From Clostridiales bacterium (GTDB lineage Bacteria > Bacillota > Clostridia > Christensenellales > Aristaeellaceae): 64,000 nt of DNA. The notes beneath the pieces are model-generated. The model searched no databases. It had not been told where the DNA came from and worked only from the letters and a program-made list of their open reading frames with translations. Numbering within the stretch: position 1 is the stretch's first letter; the number at the start of each line of letters is the position of its first letter. The translations under genes were made by a program, and so were the position numbers. The DNA is taken from contig SVHA01000001.1 in NCBI GenBank assembly GCA_015056085.1, positions 434,001 to 498,000 of the forward strand, read 5' to 3'. Shown one piece after another: positions 6,838 through 59,308 of this stretch.

Positions 6838-8004
6838 TTACCGCCAGTTCTTCAAGATGCGCTCCAGCCCCTCGATGAAACCGGGGCGAGGCACATCCGT
6901 GGCAGCGACGCAGTTGATCTTCGCCACCACCTGACCTTCCAGCAGCACACGGGCCACGCCCATCACATCCCCCGCCTTCACCGGCGCCTGTACGTTTTCC
7001 TTAAGTTCCAGTTCGATGGTGACGTCCTTCTGCTGACCGTTTTTCAGCAGCATCGACAGGCCGCTGCCCAGCGCCAGAGGCACTTCTTCAGCGCTGCCGC
7101 CCTTGACCGGCAGGGTTTGCCCCAGCAGGTCGCCCCGGTTGCACACCGTGATGCGCCGATAGGTAGCAAAGCCGTAATCCAGCATGGCCCGGGCTTCATC
7201 AAAGCGGGTCTGGCTCACCGGCGTGCCCAGCACCACCGCCACGAGGCGCATCCCGTTTTTCTCCGCCGTGGCGGAAAGGCAGTACTTCGCTGCGTCGGTG
7301 GAGCCTGTTTTCAGTCCGTCGCAGCCCTCATAAAACCGCACCAGCCGGTTGGTGTTGGTCAAATCCGTGACCCGGCCGCCGGGATGGGTCAGCTGATCCA
7401 TCCAGATGCTGGAATACTCCATGTATTTGGGGTGGCGGATGACCTCGCAGCTGAGGGTGCACACGTCCCGTGCGGTGGTGTACTGCCCCTCCTGCGGGTA
7501 GCCCGTGGCATTGACGAAATGGGTGTTGGTCATGCCCAGTTGCGCCGCCCGCTCGTTCATTTTTTCCGCAAAGAGAGCCTCCGTGCCACACAGATGCTCC
7601 GCCAGAGCCACAGCGGAATCATTGGCGCTGGCCATGATGGTGGTCATCAGCAGGTCTTCGAGGGAATAGGTCGCTCCTGCGTCCAGCAGCGCCTGAGAGC
7701 CCTTCATGGCGGCGGCGTTCTGGCTGATGGTGACGCTGTCCGTCAGGGCAACCTGCCCCTGTTCCACCGCTTCCAGCACCAAAAGCGCCGTCATCAGTTT
7801 GGTGATGGACGCCGCTTCCCGGCGCTCGTCAGCATTCTTCTCAAAGATGACAGCGCCGGTGGACGGCTCTGCCAAAACGGCGCTGGGTGAAGTCAACAAA
7901 AGCGGCTGACCTTCCTCCATAGGCTGGCCCGCCGCTTTTGCACCCAGCGGAATCATCAGCCCTGCACACACAAGCAGCGCCGCCATTTTCCGCAACATGG
8001 TCAT
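6838..8004 (-). CDS. Serine-type D-Ala-D-Ala carboxypeptidase (PBP5-like)
   Basis: 388-residue low-molecular-weight penicillin-binding protein that trims the terminal D-Ala from peptidoglycan stem peptides. Signal peptide over residues 1-25. The three S11 active-site motifs are present: SITK (SxxK), SAND (SxN) and KTGST (KTG). A C-terminal PBP5-like beta domain follows (LPVKGG...VTIELELKENVQAPVKAGD), but no obvious amphipathic membrane anchor beyond GLERILKNWR at the very end. Start ATG 8004 has GGAGGAAG just upstream. It lies 83 bases downstream of the SDR gene on the same strand and may be read through from it. DacA versus DacF is not resolvable. Confidence 0.9.
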   Translation of the reverse strand: MTMLRKMAALLVCAGLMIPLGAKAAGQPMEEGQPLLLTSPSAVLAEPSTGAVIFEKNADERREAASITKLMTALLVLEAVEQGQVALTDSVTISQNAAAMKGSQALLDAGATYSLEDLLMTTIMASANDSAVALAEHLCGTEALFAEKMNERAAQLGMTNTHFVNATGYPQEGQYTTARDVCTLSCEVIRHPKYMEYSSIWMDQLTHPGGRVTDLTNTNRLVRFYEGCDGLKTGSTDAAKYCLSATAEKNGMRLVAVVLGTPVSQTRFDEARAMLDYGFATYRRITVCNRGDLLGQTLPVKGGSAEEVPLALGSGLSMLLKNGQQKDVTIELELKENVQAPVKAGDVMGVARVLLEGQVVAKINCVAATDVPRPGFIEGLERILKNWR

Positions 8005-54244: not shown

Positions 54245-54273
54245 TCATCAGCCGCCGTGAATGCACATACACT
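54245..54273 (+). promoter_or_regulatory. Sigma-E-like promoter before ldt-spoIIIA
   Basis: TCATCAG (54245-54251), 14-base spacer, CATACACT (54266-54273). The -10 box matches the sporulation sigma-E consensus CATACAnT fully, and the -35 keeps TCAT of TCATATT. It is 33 bases ahead of the transpeptidase ATG, the first gene of the run that continues into spoIIIAA. Confidence 0.6.
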
Positions 54274-54305
54274 CCACCACACAGGGCGCAAACAAGGAGG
54301 CAGCC

Positions 54306-54968
54306 ATGCACCGCAGATTCCTCATGGCACTGATGCTGTTCATTCTGGCAAGCCTGCTTGCCCTGACCCACGACGCCCATGGGGAAAGGCCGGAGGTGAT
54401 GGTGTATGTGGATGTATCCCTCAAGCGGCTGAGCGTGTGGCAGGGCATGGAGGAAATCCGCCGGTATCCCATCGCCACCGGCGCCTGGGACACCCCCACG
54501 CCCCTGGGCACCTTCCGCATCACCAGCCGCTTCAGCGGGGAAATGGGCGGCTTCGGCACCTGCTTTCTGGGGCTGAATGTCCCCTGGGGCACCTACGGCA
54601 TCCACGGCACCAACAAGCCCGAAAGCATCGGGCTGGACGCCAGCCACGGCTGCATCCGCCTGGAAGTAGCCCACGCCGAAGACCTTTACCGCCTGTTGCC
54701 CAACGGCACGGTGGTCATCATTGCGGATGGCCCCTACGGCGAATGGGGCCACTGCCTGCGGGCGCTCAAAAACGGCGACCGCAATTCCATGGTCTGCGCT
54801 CTGCAGCGGAAATTGAAGGCCATGGGGTACTACGGCGGCTGGCCGGATGGCATCTGGGGCACAGCCACGGAAAAGGCGGTGCAGGCGGCCCGCAAGGCCT
54901 TCGGATTGCCTCCGGGGGAAGGCGACTGGGCGCTGTATCACGCCTTGGGACTGACGCTGTTTGAATAG
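54306..54968 (+). CDS. L,D-transpeptidase (YkuD) with peptidoglycan-binding domain
   Basis: 220 residues. Signal peptide or anchor RFLMALMLFILASLLALTHD, then a YkuD domain with IHGTNKPESIGLDASHGCIR (catalytic His and Cys in SHGCIRL), then a C-terminal peptidoglycan-binding type 1 domain (LQRKLKAMGYYGGWPDGIWG). It would make 3-3 crosslinks or attach proteins in the wall. ATG 54306 follows AAGGAGG. Only 19 bases separate it from spoIIIAA, and a sigma-E-like promoter precedes it, so it is probably a sporulation enzyme of the mother cell acting on forespore-septum or cortex peptidoglycan (inference). Confidence 0.88.
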   Translation: MHRRFLMALMLFILASLLALTHDAHGERPEVMVYVDVSLKRLSVWQGMEEIRRYPIATGAWDTPTPLGTFRITSRFSGEMGGFGTCFLGLNVPWGTYGIHGTNKPESIGLDASHGCIRLEVAHAEDLYRLLPNGTVVIIADGPYGEWGHCLRALKNGDRNSMVCALQRKLKAMGYYGGWPDGIWGTATEKAVQAARKAFGLPPGEGDWALYHALGLTLFE

Positions 54969-54987
54969 ACTTTTCGAGGAGTGCAGC

Positions 54988-55875
54988 ATGAACTGGCAGG
55001 AAACAAAGGACCTTCTCTTTCCCTGTCTGCCGGAAGAAATCCGGGTGGAAATGGACTTGCTCATGCCCGGAGAACTGCGGGAAATCCGCCTCAGGGCGGA
55101 TCGTCCCGCGCAGCTGGTAACCTGCGACCGCACGGCGACCCTCGGCTGGCAGCCCTCCCAGGAGGCGCTGGAAACGCTGGTGGAAGCCCTGTCCGGCCAC
55201 AGCCTCTATGCCCGCAGCGACGAGACCGCCCAGGGGTATATCACCCTGCCCGGCGGCCACAGGTGCGGACTGTGCGGGCGGGTGATTTCCCCCGAAGGGC
55301 AGCGCCGCCTGAGCCGCATCGGAAGCGTGTGCCTTCGCATTGCCGCACCCTGGCCCGGCTGTGCAGACGTGCTGCTGCCCCACCTGCTGGAGGACGGCGT
55401 CGTGCGCTCCATGCTGATCATCGGGCCTTGCGGCAGCGGCAAAACCACCCTGCTGCGGGATGCGGCAAGGCAACTCTCCGAAAGCTGCGTACAGGTAGCA
55501 ATGATCGACGAGCGGGGCGAACTGGCGGCGTGCCTGCAGGGTGTACCCCAGATGGACCTGGGCCCTTCTGCCGACGTGCTGGACAACTGCCCCAAAAGGG
55601 ACGCATTTCCCTGGCTCATCCGCTCCCTGTCGCCGCAAGCAATCATCACCGACGAACTTTCCGGCCCGGAGGATTTCGCCTGTGTGTCGGACGCCGTGTT
55701 CAGCGGTGCGGCGGTGATTGCCTCCATCCACGGCGTCAGTTTGCAGGACGTTGCCCGGCGGCCGGCAGCAGCGGCCCTTTTGTCTCAGCGGGTGTTTGAC
55801 CGCTATGCCGTGCTGGACAGCCATCAACCAGGGCAAATCATCGCCCTCTACGACAAAAACGGAGGCCCTCTATGA
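54988..55875 (+). CDS. spoIIIAA: Stage III sporulation protein AA (ATPase)
   Basis: 295 residues. Secretion-type ATPase of the SpoIIIA-SpoIIQ feeding-tube channel. Walker A GPCGSGKTTLLRD near residue 149, Walker-B-like region VAMIDERGEL, and DVLDNCPKRDAF typical of SpoIIIAA. The N-terminal GELREIRLRADRPAQLV region is conserved. GAGGAG precedes ATG 54988. Overlaps spoIIIAB by 4 bases. Confidence 0.95.
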   Translation: MNWQETKDLLFPCLPEEIRVEMDLLMPGELREIRLRADRPAQLVTCDRTATLGWQPSQEALETLVEALSGHSLYARSDETAQGYITLPGGHRCGLCGRVISPEGQRRLSRIGSVCLRIAAPWPGCADVLLPHLLEDGVVRSMLIIGPCGSGKTTLLRDAARQLSESCVQVAMIDERGELAACLQGVPQMDLGPSADVLDNCPKRDAFPWLIRSLSPQAIITDELSGPEDFACVSDAVFSGAAVIASIHGVSLQDVARRPAAAALLSQRVFDRYAVLDSHQPGQIIALYDKNGGPL

Positions 55876-56372
55876 ACGTTGCGCCCGGGCCGCTGCTGGC
55901 GGTGTTTGCGGGGCTGATGTGCGCGCTGGCGGGTTTCCGGCAGAGTTTTTCCCTGGAAAGCCGCAGCCGTTCCCTTTTCAGATGGTCGGAACTGCTGCCC
56001 CATCTGCTGCTGGTGATGCAGGAAAGCGGGCTGTCACTGCCCCAGGCTCTGCGCCTGTGCGCCACTGAAGACAAATCCCCGGACAAGCTGTTGCGGGACG
56101 TGGCCTTTCATCTGGAGCAGGAGCCGCTGCTGTCGCCGGGGGCGCTCTTTGAGCGCCTCTGCCCCCGGGATGAATCCGGCGGCGTGCTCACCCGGATGAT
56201 GATGCGCCTTGGCAGCGGCACGATGCATCAGCGGTGTCAGGCGGTGGAGCAGGCCACCCGGGAAATCACGCTGATGGCGCAATCCGCAAGGGATAAAGCC
56301 CGCAAGGATGCTTCCCTGTGGCGGACGCTGGGCCTGACGGGCGGCATCTGCCTGACGCTGCTGCTGTTGTGA
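55872..56372 (+). CDS. spoIIIAB: Stage III sporulation protein AB
   Basis: 166 residues, T2SS F-protein-like. N-terminal and C-terminal TM segments (LLAVFAGLMCALAGF; TLGLTGGICLTLLLL) flank a helical cytoplasmic part. The start overlaps the AA stop (ATGA), so translation is coupled. Confidence 0.92.
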   Translation: MNVAPGPLLAVFAGLMCALAGFRQSFSLESRSRSLFRWSELLPHLLLVMQESGLSLPQALRLCATEDKSPDKLLRDVAFHLEQEPLLSPGALFERLCPRDESGGVLTRMMMRLGSGTMHQRCQAVEQATREITLMAQSARDKARKDASLWRTLGLTGGICLTLLLL

Positions 56373-56397: not shown

Positions 56398-56595
56398 ATG
56401 CAGCTTGACTTGCTGTTTCAAATTGCCGGCGTGGGCATCCTGACCACGGTGATTTCGTCCGTCCTGTCCCGCTCCGGCCGGGAGGAACTGGCCACCCTGA
56501 CCACCGTGGCGGGGCTGGCGCTGGTGCTTTTGATGGTGGTCAATCTGCTGTCGGAACTGTTCACCAGCGTCAGGACCATCTTCCAACTGTACTGA
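56398..56595 (+). CDS. spoIIIAC: Stage III sporulation protein AC
   Basis: 65 residues, two TM helices (LLFQIAGVGILTTVISSVL; TTVAGLALVLLMVVNLL). Length and sequence typical. AGGAGG precedes ATG 56398. Confidence 0.93.
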   Translation: MQLDLLFQIAGVGILTTVISSVLSRSGREELATLTTVAGLALVLLMVVNLLSELFTSVRTIFQLY

Positions 56596-56626: not shown

Positions 56627-57013
56627 ATGACCGCCTTGCAGATTTTTTCCATTGCCGTGTGCGCCGCTGTGCTGGTGCTGGTGCTGCGGCGCACCCGCCC
56701 CGAGAGCGCCACGGTGCTGAGCATGGCCGCCGGGGCACTTGCCCTTTTGTGCGCCCTGCCCACCCTGGGCACGGTGCTTTCCGGGCTGACGGACATGGCC
56801 CGGCTGGGTGGCGTGGCCGACGAGTACCTTTCCCAGCTGCTGAAGGTGGCGGGCGTGGCGCTGCTGATGGACTTTTCCGCCCAAACCTGCCGGGACGCCG
56901 GGGAAGAAGGGCTTGCCCTGAAAACGGAACTGGCCGGGCGGGTGATGCTGATCTCTCTGGCGCTGCCCTTCATGCAGGCGCTTCTGCAGCAAATTCTCTC
57001 CATTGCGCCGTGA
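56627..57013 (+). CDS. spoIIIAD: Stage III sporulation protein AD
   Basis: 128 residues with four TM helices; YLSQLLKVAGVALLMDFSAQ and TCRDAGEEGLALKTELAGR are conserved SpoIIIAD segments. Start ATG 56627 is preceded by GGGGCAAAGGAC. Overlaps spoIIIAE (GTGA). Confidence 0.93.
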   Translation: MTALQIFSIAVCAAVLVLVLRRTRPESATVLSMAAGALALLCALPTLGTVLSGLTDMARLGGVADEYLSQLLKVAGVALLMDFSAQTCRDAGEEGLALKTELAGRVMLISLALPFMQALLQQILSIAP

Positions 57014-58140
57014 AGACCCTGCTGGCGATCCTTGTGCTTGTGGTACTGCTCTTCTCCCCTGCCCGAGGGGAAACGCTGGAAGAGGGCATCCAGCAGGTGC
57101 TGGATACGCTGGATGTCAGCGAACTGGAACAGCATCTGCAGCAGGACGACCCCTTTGCATCCACCGGCGGCCTTGTGCCCACCATCCGGGCCATTGCCTC
57201 CGGGGAATTGACGCTGGACTTTCAGCAGGTGATGGCGGGCATCATCTCCCGGCTGTTCTCCGAGGCAAAAAATTCCCTCTGGCGGCTGACACGACTGCTG
57301 GCGCCGGCGCTGATCTGGAGCATCCTGCGCCGCCTGACAGGCAAGAGCAGCGAGGCGGGGCGGGCGGTGTGCCTGCTGGCGATCTGCGTGTTTCTGACAA
57401 GGGACCTGACGGATCACATCACCCTGTGCCGTAATACGGTCAGCAAGGTGGCCAGCGGGATGCAGGGACTGTTTCCCCTGCTGCTGACGCTGATGGCAGC
57501 CGTGGGCGGCCATGCAGCCTCGGCACTGGTGCAGCCGGCGGTGGTCACCGCCGCCGGAACCATGACCTCTCTGGTGGAAAACGTCACCCTGCCCCTGGCC
57601 CTTTTGTGCGCCACAGTCACCATGCTGTGCCGCCTGGGCAGCGGTATCCGTCTGCAGCATCTGGCGAGCCTCCTGTATCAGGCCGCCGCCTGGACGCTGG
57701 GGCTGTGCTTCACGGTGTTCATCGGGGTCATTACCACCAGGTGCGTCACCTCGGCAGCGCTGGACGGCGTGACGCTGCGCACCGCCAAGTATGCCCTGGA
57801 CAACCTGATTCCCGTGGTGGGCGGGCTGTTTGCCGACACGGTGGACACGCTGGTGGGCGCCGGAATGCTGGTGCAGGGAGCACTGGGCGTGACGGGCGTG
57901 CTGCTGCTGGGAGCATGGTGCCTGGCGCCCCTGTGCCAGACCTTCGCTGCCGCCATGATGTACAAACTGACAGCGGCGCTGCTCCAGCCGGTGTCCGATG
58001 GCGAACCGGCGGGGTGCATTCATGATTTCTCCCGGGTGCTGATGCTGCTGTTCATCATTGAACTGTGCATCGCCGCCATGTTTCTGATGCTCCTGGCCCA
58101 ACTGATTTCCGTTTCCAGCATGACGATGATGCTCCGCTGA
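57010..58140 (+). CDS. spoIIIAE: Stage III sporulation protein AE
   Basis: 376-residue polytopic membrane protein, the largest SpoIIIA channel subunit. N-terminal signal segment (LLAILVLVVLLFSPARGE), then an extracytoplasmic stretch and about seven TM helices. Start is GTG 57010 overlapping the AD stop codon. A frame extension back to 56623 is only the shadow of spoIIIAD. Confidence 0.93.
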   Translation: MKTLLAILVLVVLLFSPARGETLEEGIQQVLDTLDVSELEQHLQQDDPFASTGGLVPTIRAIASGELTLDFQQVMAGIISRLFSEAKNSLWRLTRLLAPALIWSILRRLTGKSSEAGRAVCLLAICVFLTRDLTDHITLCRNTVSKVASGMQGLFPLLLTLMAAVGGHAASALVQPAVVTAAGTMTSLVENVTLPLALLCATVTMLCRLGSGIRLQHLASLLYQAAAWTLGLCFTVFIGVITTRCVTSAALDGVTLRTAKYALDNLIPVVGGLFADTVDTLVGAGMLVQGALGVTGVLLLGAWCLAPLCQTFAAAMMYKLTAALLQPVSDGEPAGCIHDFSRVLMLLFIIELCIAAMFLMLLAQLISVSSMTMMLR

Positions 58141-58156: not shown

Positions 58157-58453
58157 ATGCACACCGGACTGTTTTCTTCCCTGATGGAGCCATTAAAAGC
58201 CTTTTCCGCCCTGGCAATGGTCACATCAGCCGTGCTGACGCTTTTGCCGGAAGGCACGCTTCGCAAGACGGTTTCCATGGTGGCGGCGCTGATGATGATG
58301 CTCCTGTGGGCAGAGGGCCTCAGCGGGTATCTTCCGCCGGGATGGAACGCCGCTCCCGCCGGAGAATGCCTCACGGACACAGGCGTCACCCTGTCGGACA
58401 TATCAAGCGGGGCGCAGGAACACCTGCTTCCCCCGGGAGGTGAAGGGCCGTGA
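58157..58453 (+). CDS. spoIIIAF: Short stage III sporulation protein AF
   Basis: 98 residues instead of the roughly 200 usual for SpoIIIAF. The N-terminal two TM helices are present (FSALAMVTSAVLTLLPEG with TLRKTVSMVAALMMMLLW), but after LSGYLPPGWN only about 40 residues follow, so the extracytoplasmic ring-building domain is missing. The position between AE and AG identifies it. Overlaps spoIIIAG (GTGA). Confidence 0.8.
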   Translation: MHTGLFSSLMEPLKAFSALAMVTSAVLTLLPEGTLRKTVSMVAALMMMLLWAEGLSGYLPPGWNAAPAGECLTDTGVTLSDISSGAQEHLLPPGGEGP

Positions 58454-58800
58454 AATGGCAAGCCTCCTTCAAGGGGCTGATGCAGCGGGACGGCTGGCTT
58501 TTGGCGGCCCTTGCGGGGGCGGTCATGCTGTGCGTGATGCTGCCGATGTTTTCCGCCTCCACCCCCATGACCCAGGAGGAGCAGCGGTATGCCCGGGTGC
58601 TTTCCACCATGGAAGGCGCCGGCCAGGTGGACGTGGCCATCCGCTGCGACAAGGACGGCATCCCCGAAAGCTGCGTGGTGGTGGCCCAGGGCGCAGAAGA
58701 TGCGCTGGTGCGCCTGCGCCTGCGGGACGCCGCAGCCACCCTTCTGGGCATCGATACAAAGCAGGTCGCCGTATATCAGCGCAGAAAGGAAGGAACATAG
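58450..58800 (+). CDS. spoIIIAG: Short stage III sporulation protein AG
   Basis: 116 residues, against roughly 190-230 in other species. One TM helix (LLAALAGAVMLCVMLPMF), then a single compact ring-building motif: EEQRYARVLSTMEGAGQVDV, SCVVVAQGAEDALVRLRLRD, AAATLLGIDTKQVAVYQ. The long insertion that forms the beta-triangle in Bacillus AG is absent. Start GTG 58450 overlaps the AF stop. The homolog lines the inner ring of the channel. Confidence 0.85.
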   Translation: MKWQASFKGLMQRDGWLLAALAGAVMLCVMLPMFSASTPMTQEEQRYARVLSTMEGAGQVDVAIRCDKDGIPESCVVVAQGAEDALVRLRLRDAAATLLGIDTKQVAVYQRRKEGT

Positions 58801-58801
58801 C

Positions 58802-59308
58802 ATGGGAAAGACCGGCGATTTCATCACCAGGCACCGCAATCTCCTTCTGGTGGCCCTCACCGTTTGCACCATCGCAGCCGCCACCTGGTGGCCTACGCCC
58901 GCCCAGCCTGCCGCCGTGACGCTGCCCGTCACAGATCCCGTATCCACCGCAGAGGACACGCTGGAAGCCTATCGCCTGCGCCGGGACCAGGACGCCCTCA
59001 AGGACATGGAGGCGCTGGAAAGCATCGTCGCCCAGACGTCTCTGGATGAATCTACCCGGCAAAGCGCCGCCAATCAACTCAAGCAGCTGGTGGATTTCCG
59101 CCAGAAGCAAACGGCGCTGGAAGGCGCGCTGCTCAACAGCCGCGTTTCCCCCTGCGTAGCGGTTATGTCTCAGGGCGGTGTGACCATCGTGACGGAAAAG
59201 ACGGATTTATCAGACAGCGAAACCACGCTCATCCTCACGCTGGCAAATCTTCACGCCGATGTTTCACCTGGCAACGTTTGGGTTATAACATTGTCAGGGG
59301 AAAAGTGA
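58802..59308 (+). CDS. spoIIIAH: Stage III sporulation protein AH
   Basis: 168 residues. N-terminal TM (LLLVALTVCTIAAATWW) and a C-terminal domain (YRLRRDQDALKDMEALESIV ... LEGALLNSRVSPCVAVMSQGG) matching the YscJ/FliF-like part that interacts with forespore SpoIIQ. AGGAAGG precedes ATG 58802. Last gene of the operon. A forespore partner spoIIQ is not in the window. Confidence 0.9.
   Translation: MGKTGDFITRHRNLLLVALTVCTIAAATWWPTPAQPAAVTLPVTDPVSTAEDTLEAYRLRRDQDALKDMEALESIVAQTSLDESTRQSAANQLKQLVDFRQKQTALEGALLNSRVSPCVAVMSQGGVTIVTEKTDLSDSETTLILTLANLHADVSPGNVWVITLSGEK

Follow-up and report, generated by a model that had tools for sequence, protein, structure and literature searches.

The first gene of the spoIIIA operon in the 64-kb stretch of DNA analysed here (the window) is ldt. 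Computation established its domains, catalytic residues and fold, by which it encodes a secreted YkuD-type L,D-transpeptidase (LDT) of predicted activity, together with its operon position, its match to a sigma-E promoter, its conserved linkage to spoIIIA and its co-occurrence with spoIIIAA. The linkage is no accident of one genome. We consider it probable that this secreted, peptidoglycan-binding enzyme would be produced by the mother cell under sigma-E control, co-transcribed with spoIIIAA-AH, and would perform 3-3 crosslinking around the forespore and nascent cortex. What is new is the operon arrangement, the enzyme being of a known kind; no earlier report of ldt-spoIIIA linkage was found in the open-access literature searched.

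The coding frame of ldt (54306..54968, + strand) begins with an ATG at 54306 behind the ribosome-binding site AAGGAGG, ends with a TAG at 54966-54968 and encodes a product of 220 aa. Its domain order is signal peptide or transmembrane segment (residues 1-26), YkuD (33-139) and PG_binding_1 (160-203), the N-terminus being hydrophobic with a plausible signal-peptidase site (cleavage between AHG and ER). Pfam matches to YkuD (PF03734, 2.8e-22; 80.3 bits against a curated cut-off of 23.4) and PG_binding_1 (8.9e-10) bear out the original prediction of a YkuD-type enzyme with a peptidoglycan-binding domain. The catalytic residues are His100, Ser113 and Cys116; the HG...SHGCxR motif is present with its Cys nucleophile, and H100, G101, S113, G115, C116 and R118 are invariant in an alignment of 90 orthologs. 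The PDB structures nearest to the AlphaFold model (pLDDT 89) are 1y7m (YkuD of Bacillus subtilis, the top match) and 4a1i, and sequence searches of the PDB likewise place B. subtilis YkuD first. By profile search, the peptidoglycan-binding part resembles spore cortex-lytic enzymes (TIGR02869, 1.4e-7; PDB 6tci and 4fet); domains of this kind are widespread beyond such enzymes.

The stop codon of ldt is separated by 19 nt from the ATG of spoIIIAA, exactly as predicted, and the entire spoIIIA operon then runs to 59308, all on the + strand. spoIIIAA (54988..55875; Spore_III_AA PF19568, 1.3e-62; TIGR02858, 7.3e-72) encodes the ATPase with its Walker A motif GPCGSGKTT and has its own ribosome-binding site, GAGGAG, before the ATG at 54988. 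It is followed by spoIIIAB (55872..56372; PF09548, 2.5e-13), spoIIIAC (56398..56595; TIGR02848, 1.1e-24) and spoIIIAD (56627..57013; TIGR02849, 7.8e-20), the last two being recognised by Pfam as well. The frame at 57010..58140, with an inferred GTG start, was assigned as spoIIIAE by operon position and open-frame length only, and that at 58157..58453 as spoIIIAF only by its position between spoIIIAE and spoIIIAG, no Pfam or NCBIfam model matching it. spoIIIAG (58450..58800; TIGR02830, 2.5e-7, C-terminal part) is a short form of 116 aa in which only 35 C-terminal profile positions are matched, giving the impression that the usual protein's large central region is absent. The operon closes with spoIIIAH (58802..59308; PF12685, 1.8e-14).

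The predicted promoter of ldt, TCATCAG-N14-CATACACT, has its -35 element at 54245..54251 (TCAT at 54245-54248) and its -10 element at 54266..54273 on the + strand. The TCAT -35 and the -10 had been predicted correctly; the distance from the -10 to the ATG is 32 nt, not 33. Scored against a published-type sigma-E consensus (-35 KMATATT, -10 CATACAMT, spacer 13-15 nt, maximum score 15), both elements and spacer agree, giving 12/15 (4/7 for the -35, 8/8 for the -10), the joint best value on the + strand of the window, and the promoter is conserved across genera. TCAT-N17-CATACAMT occurs a single time in the window, with 0 mismatches, when 0.27 occurrences would be expected even at one mismatch allowed. 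Across the 2.08 Mb genome, KCAT-N16-18-CATACAHT has four matches, the ldt promoter among them. The other three are not clearly sporulation promoters, so this pattern was rejected for mapping the sigma-E regulon and spoIVA and spoIID were taken as named positive controls. A frame resembling a YhcN/YlaJ-type spore lipoprotein (L056:1524-2105) adjoins one of the four matches. The ldt promoter resembles those of spoIVA (GCATATT-N14-CATAATCA) and spoIID (GCATGAT-N14-CATACGCT) in the same genome, and KCAT occupies the corresponding place upstream of both controls and of most of the genus's linked ldt genes. The genome's three further YkuD genes have no upstream sigma-E site above 10/15.

A separate promoter for spoIIIAA, which the original prediction had named as evidence that would speak against it, was searched for but does not occur in the window: the best sigma-E-like site directly before spoIIIAA scores 9/15, about the level of shuffled sequence. 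ldt and spoIIIA are therefore predicted to form one sigma-E transcript, and ldt has the conserved adjacency and shared strand of an operon member. The ldt promoter seems to have taken over as promoter of spoIIIA in the lineage of the window. In six linked relatives (L073, L074, L076, L078, L082 and L085) a further sigma-E-like site does lie after ldt and just before spoIIIAA, and there each gene may have a promoter to itself; spoIIIAA is also preceded by a good site in three of four genomes tested from a clade in which the genes are unlinked. yqhV of B. subtilis, which is not an LDT gene, provides a precedent for a sigma-E gene leading into spoIIIA. It lies just upstream of the operon with likely read-through into it (PMC517825), and differs in that spoIIIA has its own promoter between the two genes, where the window has none.

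The linkage was surveyed in 120 genomes of the family, with SpoIIIAA scored over the family cut-off. SpoIIIAA is present in 61 and absent in 59; the genomes without it, about half, include many that are over 90% complete, and this suggests repeated loss of sporulation within the one family. LDT occurs in 30 genomes, all among the 61 with spoIIIAA and none among the 59 without it (Fisher p 1.7e-11 by genome and 0.0016 by genus, values that are uncorrected for kinship and not independent because the genomes share it). The survey found the linkage conserved within the family, as the original prediction proposed to check: ldt lies directly before spoIIIAA in 24 of the 30 LDT-bearing genomes, from ten genera, and in the other six (three genera) LDT is on another contig. 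Among the named relatives are Candidatus Limiplasma, Candidatus Onthenecus and a large number of genomes from the ruminant gut.

In the window a divergent 5'-nucleotidase gene lies upstream of ldt; only the ten nearest of 26 linked loci share it. As the upstream genes change, conservation of ldt-spoIIIAA is more than frozen synteny, and with ten genera sharing the pair a chance adjacency was rejected. The spoIIIA operons of the family without LDT have mixed upstream genes, and no single conserved upstream partner was found for them. In L083, a serine-recombinase-like frame (L083:4718-5476, opposite strand) follows ldt at the place where its close relative L088 has spoIIIAA; it may be an inserted element or result from an assembly join. 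The linkage is not a feature of Clostridia at large: in the best 80 named loci, no ortholog from outside the lineage lies beside spoIIIAA, and those beyond the order (Caldicoprobacter, Mahella, Alkaliphilus, Clostridium acetireducens and Thermobrachium) sit among unrelated genes.

On trees of LDT the linkage label needs few changes, four on the family tree, and ldt is unlinked to spoIIIA in the outgroup families of the order. These trees are most simply read as a single gain at the root of the family, followed by losses in L083, in the L168/L169 pair and in a clade of about 14 rows, two gains being a possible alternative history. LDT is retained outside the spoIIIA operon in one clade and in two further genera.

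Promoter signals extend beyond the linked loci. In shuffle tests that treat loci as independent, so that kinship between them remains in the scores, the mean best upstream sigma-E score of linked ldt was 11.46 vs 9.80 for dinucleotide shuffles (sd 0.17), or 11.00 vs 9.04 (sd 0.37) with the upstream region redrawn from the predicted start codon. Unlinked ldt of the family scored 11.07 vs 9.77 (sd 0.21) and orthologs from the order's other families 10.67 vs 9.10 (sd 0.44), with sigma-E-like sites before the orthologs of two other families and of one unlinked clade of the family. Distant orthologs in Clostridia scored 10.90 vs 10.68 (sd 0.14), a signal that is at most weak (z about 1.5-2.4). The redrawn region gave results in agreement with all of these. 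Since orthologs outside the operon also have sigma-E-like sites, sigma-E control of ldt is probably older than its operon position.

The promoter, not the position, is thus the wider constant, and for this reason crosslinking of the forespore wall and cortex, timed together with channel building, is favoured over a channel-specific job. Sigma-E would transcribe ldt in the mother cell with spoIIIAA-AH on the same mRNA, and LDT would be exported across the engulfing mother-cell membrane into the intermembrane space of the forespore. LDTs act on tetrapeptide stems, which D-alanyl-D-alanine carboxypeptidases produce, and the genome encodes three D,D-carboxypeptidases scoring above cut-off that could do this trimming. 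A D-alanyl-D-alanine carboxypeptidase domain (Peptidase_S11) is found in the window at 7222-7899 (-). LDT would then form 3-3 crosslinks in the thin forespore peptidoglycan and nascent cortex while the SpoIIIA channel assembles in the same intermembrane space, the leading position in the operon coupling the amount and timing of LDT to those of the channel proteins. We infer the sigma-E transcription, single mRNA, export, 3-3 activity and place of action from sequence and predicted structure. The cortex of Clostridioides difficile, crosslinked solely through 3-3 bonds, and its sigma-E-controlled YkuD enzyme LdtCd3 speak for this reading (PMC11986978). The idea that the enzyme opens peptidoglycan, also raised in the original prediction, does not match the chemistry of an LDT. 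SpoIVA and SpoIID-family proteins in the genome fit a sporulating organism. Four VanW-domain proteins are also encoded, so LDT may be redundant with them.

The original interpretation is borne out in part: enzyme class, leading operon position, sigma-E-like promoter and conserved linkage are supported, and a service to the channel itself is a hypothesis. LDT as a dedicated channel factor, which would fix or strengthen the wall at the very site where the membranes are bridged by SpoIIIAH-SpoIIQ, would suit the linkage across ten genera, and a 2013 study by Rodrigues and colleagues, listed among the references of PMC6934232, is reported to have found that channel assembly in B. subtilis requires peptidoglycan remodelling. 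We regard this as unlikely, however: the clade without linkage retains LDT, which argues that LDT is not an obligate channel part; orthologs in other families of the order lie elsewhere, still with sigma-E-like promoters, and fit co-timed forespore and cortex crosslinking at least equally well; and many spoIIIA operons of the family have no LDT. LDT is missing from 31 of the 61 spoIIIAA-bearing genomes, which is not the distribution of a core component of the SpoIIIA-SpoIIQ channel, and because about half of these genomes do without it, it is dispensable in the lineage. More doubtful still is that LDT is a working part of the channel machine, local 3-3 crosslinks at the SpoIIIAH-SpoIIQ rings being needed for assembly or stability, which would account for the first-gene position of ldt.

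Ranking between these two in probability, and hence also improbable, is that a general wall enzyme with an unseen vegetative promoter landed before spoIIIA, the read-through being of little meaning. Close relatives with YkuD and peptidoglycan-binding domains in Clostridium, Alkaliphilus and Caldicoprobacter do adjoin unrelated genes, with an upstream sigma-E signal that is weak at best, but ldt has a sigma-E-like promoter, no sigma-70-like site was found upstream of it on the + strand, and LDT is missing from every family genome that lacks spoIIIAA. Some YkuD proteins act as L,D-carboxypeptidases and Braun lipoprotein LDTs anchor a protein to peptidoglycan, and in NCBIfam LDT weakly matches the L,D-carboxypeptidase ElsL (3.8e-5), yet a carboxypeptidase or anchoring enzyme in place of a 3-3 crosslinker is the least likely reading, as the closest solved relative, B. 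subtilis YkuD, is deposited as an L,D-transpeptidase and the window's spoIIIA operon holds no partner substrate gene.

B. subtilis YkuD has an N-terminal LysM domain, whereas the window's LDT has the order signal peptide-YkuD-PG_binding_1. The two share the YkuD fold (Foldseek E 1.7e-12, 38% identity over 116 columns) and SxGC motif, and ykuD is likewise a mother-cell sporulation gene. It belongs to the sigma-K regulon (PMC517825), whereas ldt is predicted to be under sigma-E and lies in the spoIIIA operon. LdtCd3 (CD3007) of C. difficile is also a YkuD-domain LDT under mother-cell control, likened here by domain and regulon and not by orthology. To our knowledge, it has no link to the spoIIIA operon. 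LdtCd3 is a member of the sigma-E regulon, and the C. difficile cortex has crosslinks that are weak in extent and exclusively 3-3; a triple YkuD mutant nevertheless has a normal, unchanged cortex, its crosslinking being attributed to VanW-type LDTs (PMC11986978), perhaps the reason why YkuD enzymes are dispensable there.

With the purely 3-3 cortex of C. difficile unaffected by YkuD deletions (PMC11986978), the question is which enzymes make the crosslinks of cortex and forespore wall in Clostridia. A YkuD-type LDT tied to spoIIIA under a predicted sigma-E promoter is a defined candidate crosslinker. In this family of uncultured gut Clostridia, ldt heads the operon for the channel between mother cell and forespore. 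This arrangement suggests that channel building is coordinated in time with crosslinking of the wall that surrounds the developing spore, and the lineage offers a testable link between the two. ldt may also mark the ability to sporulate in uncultured genomes of the family.
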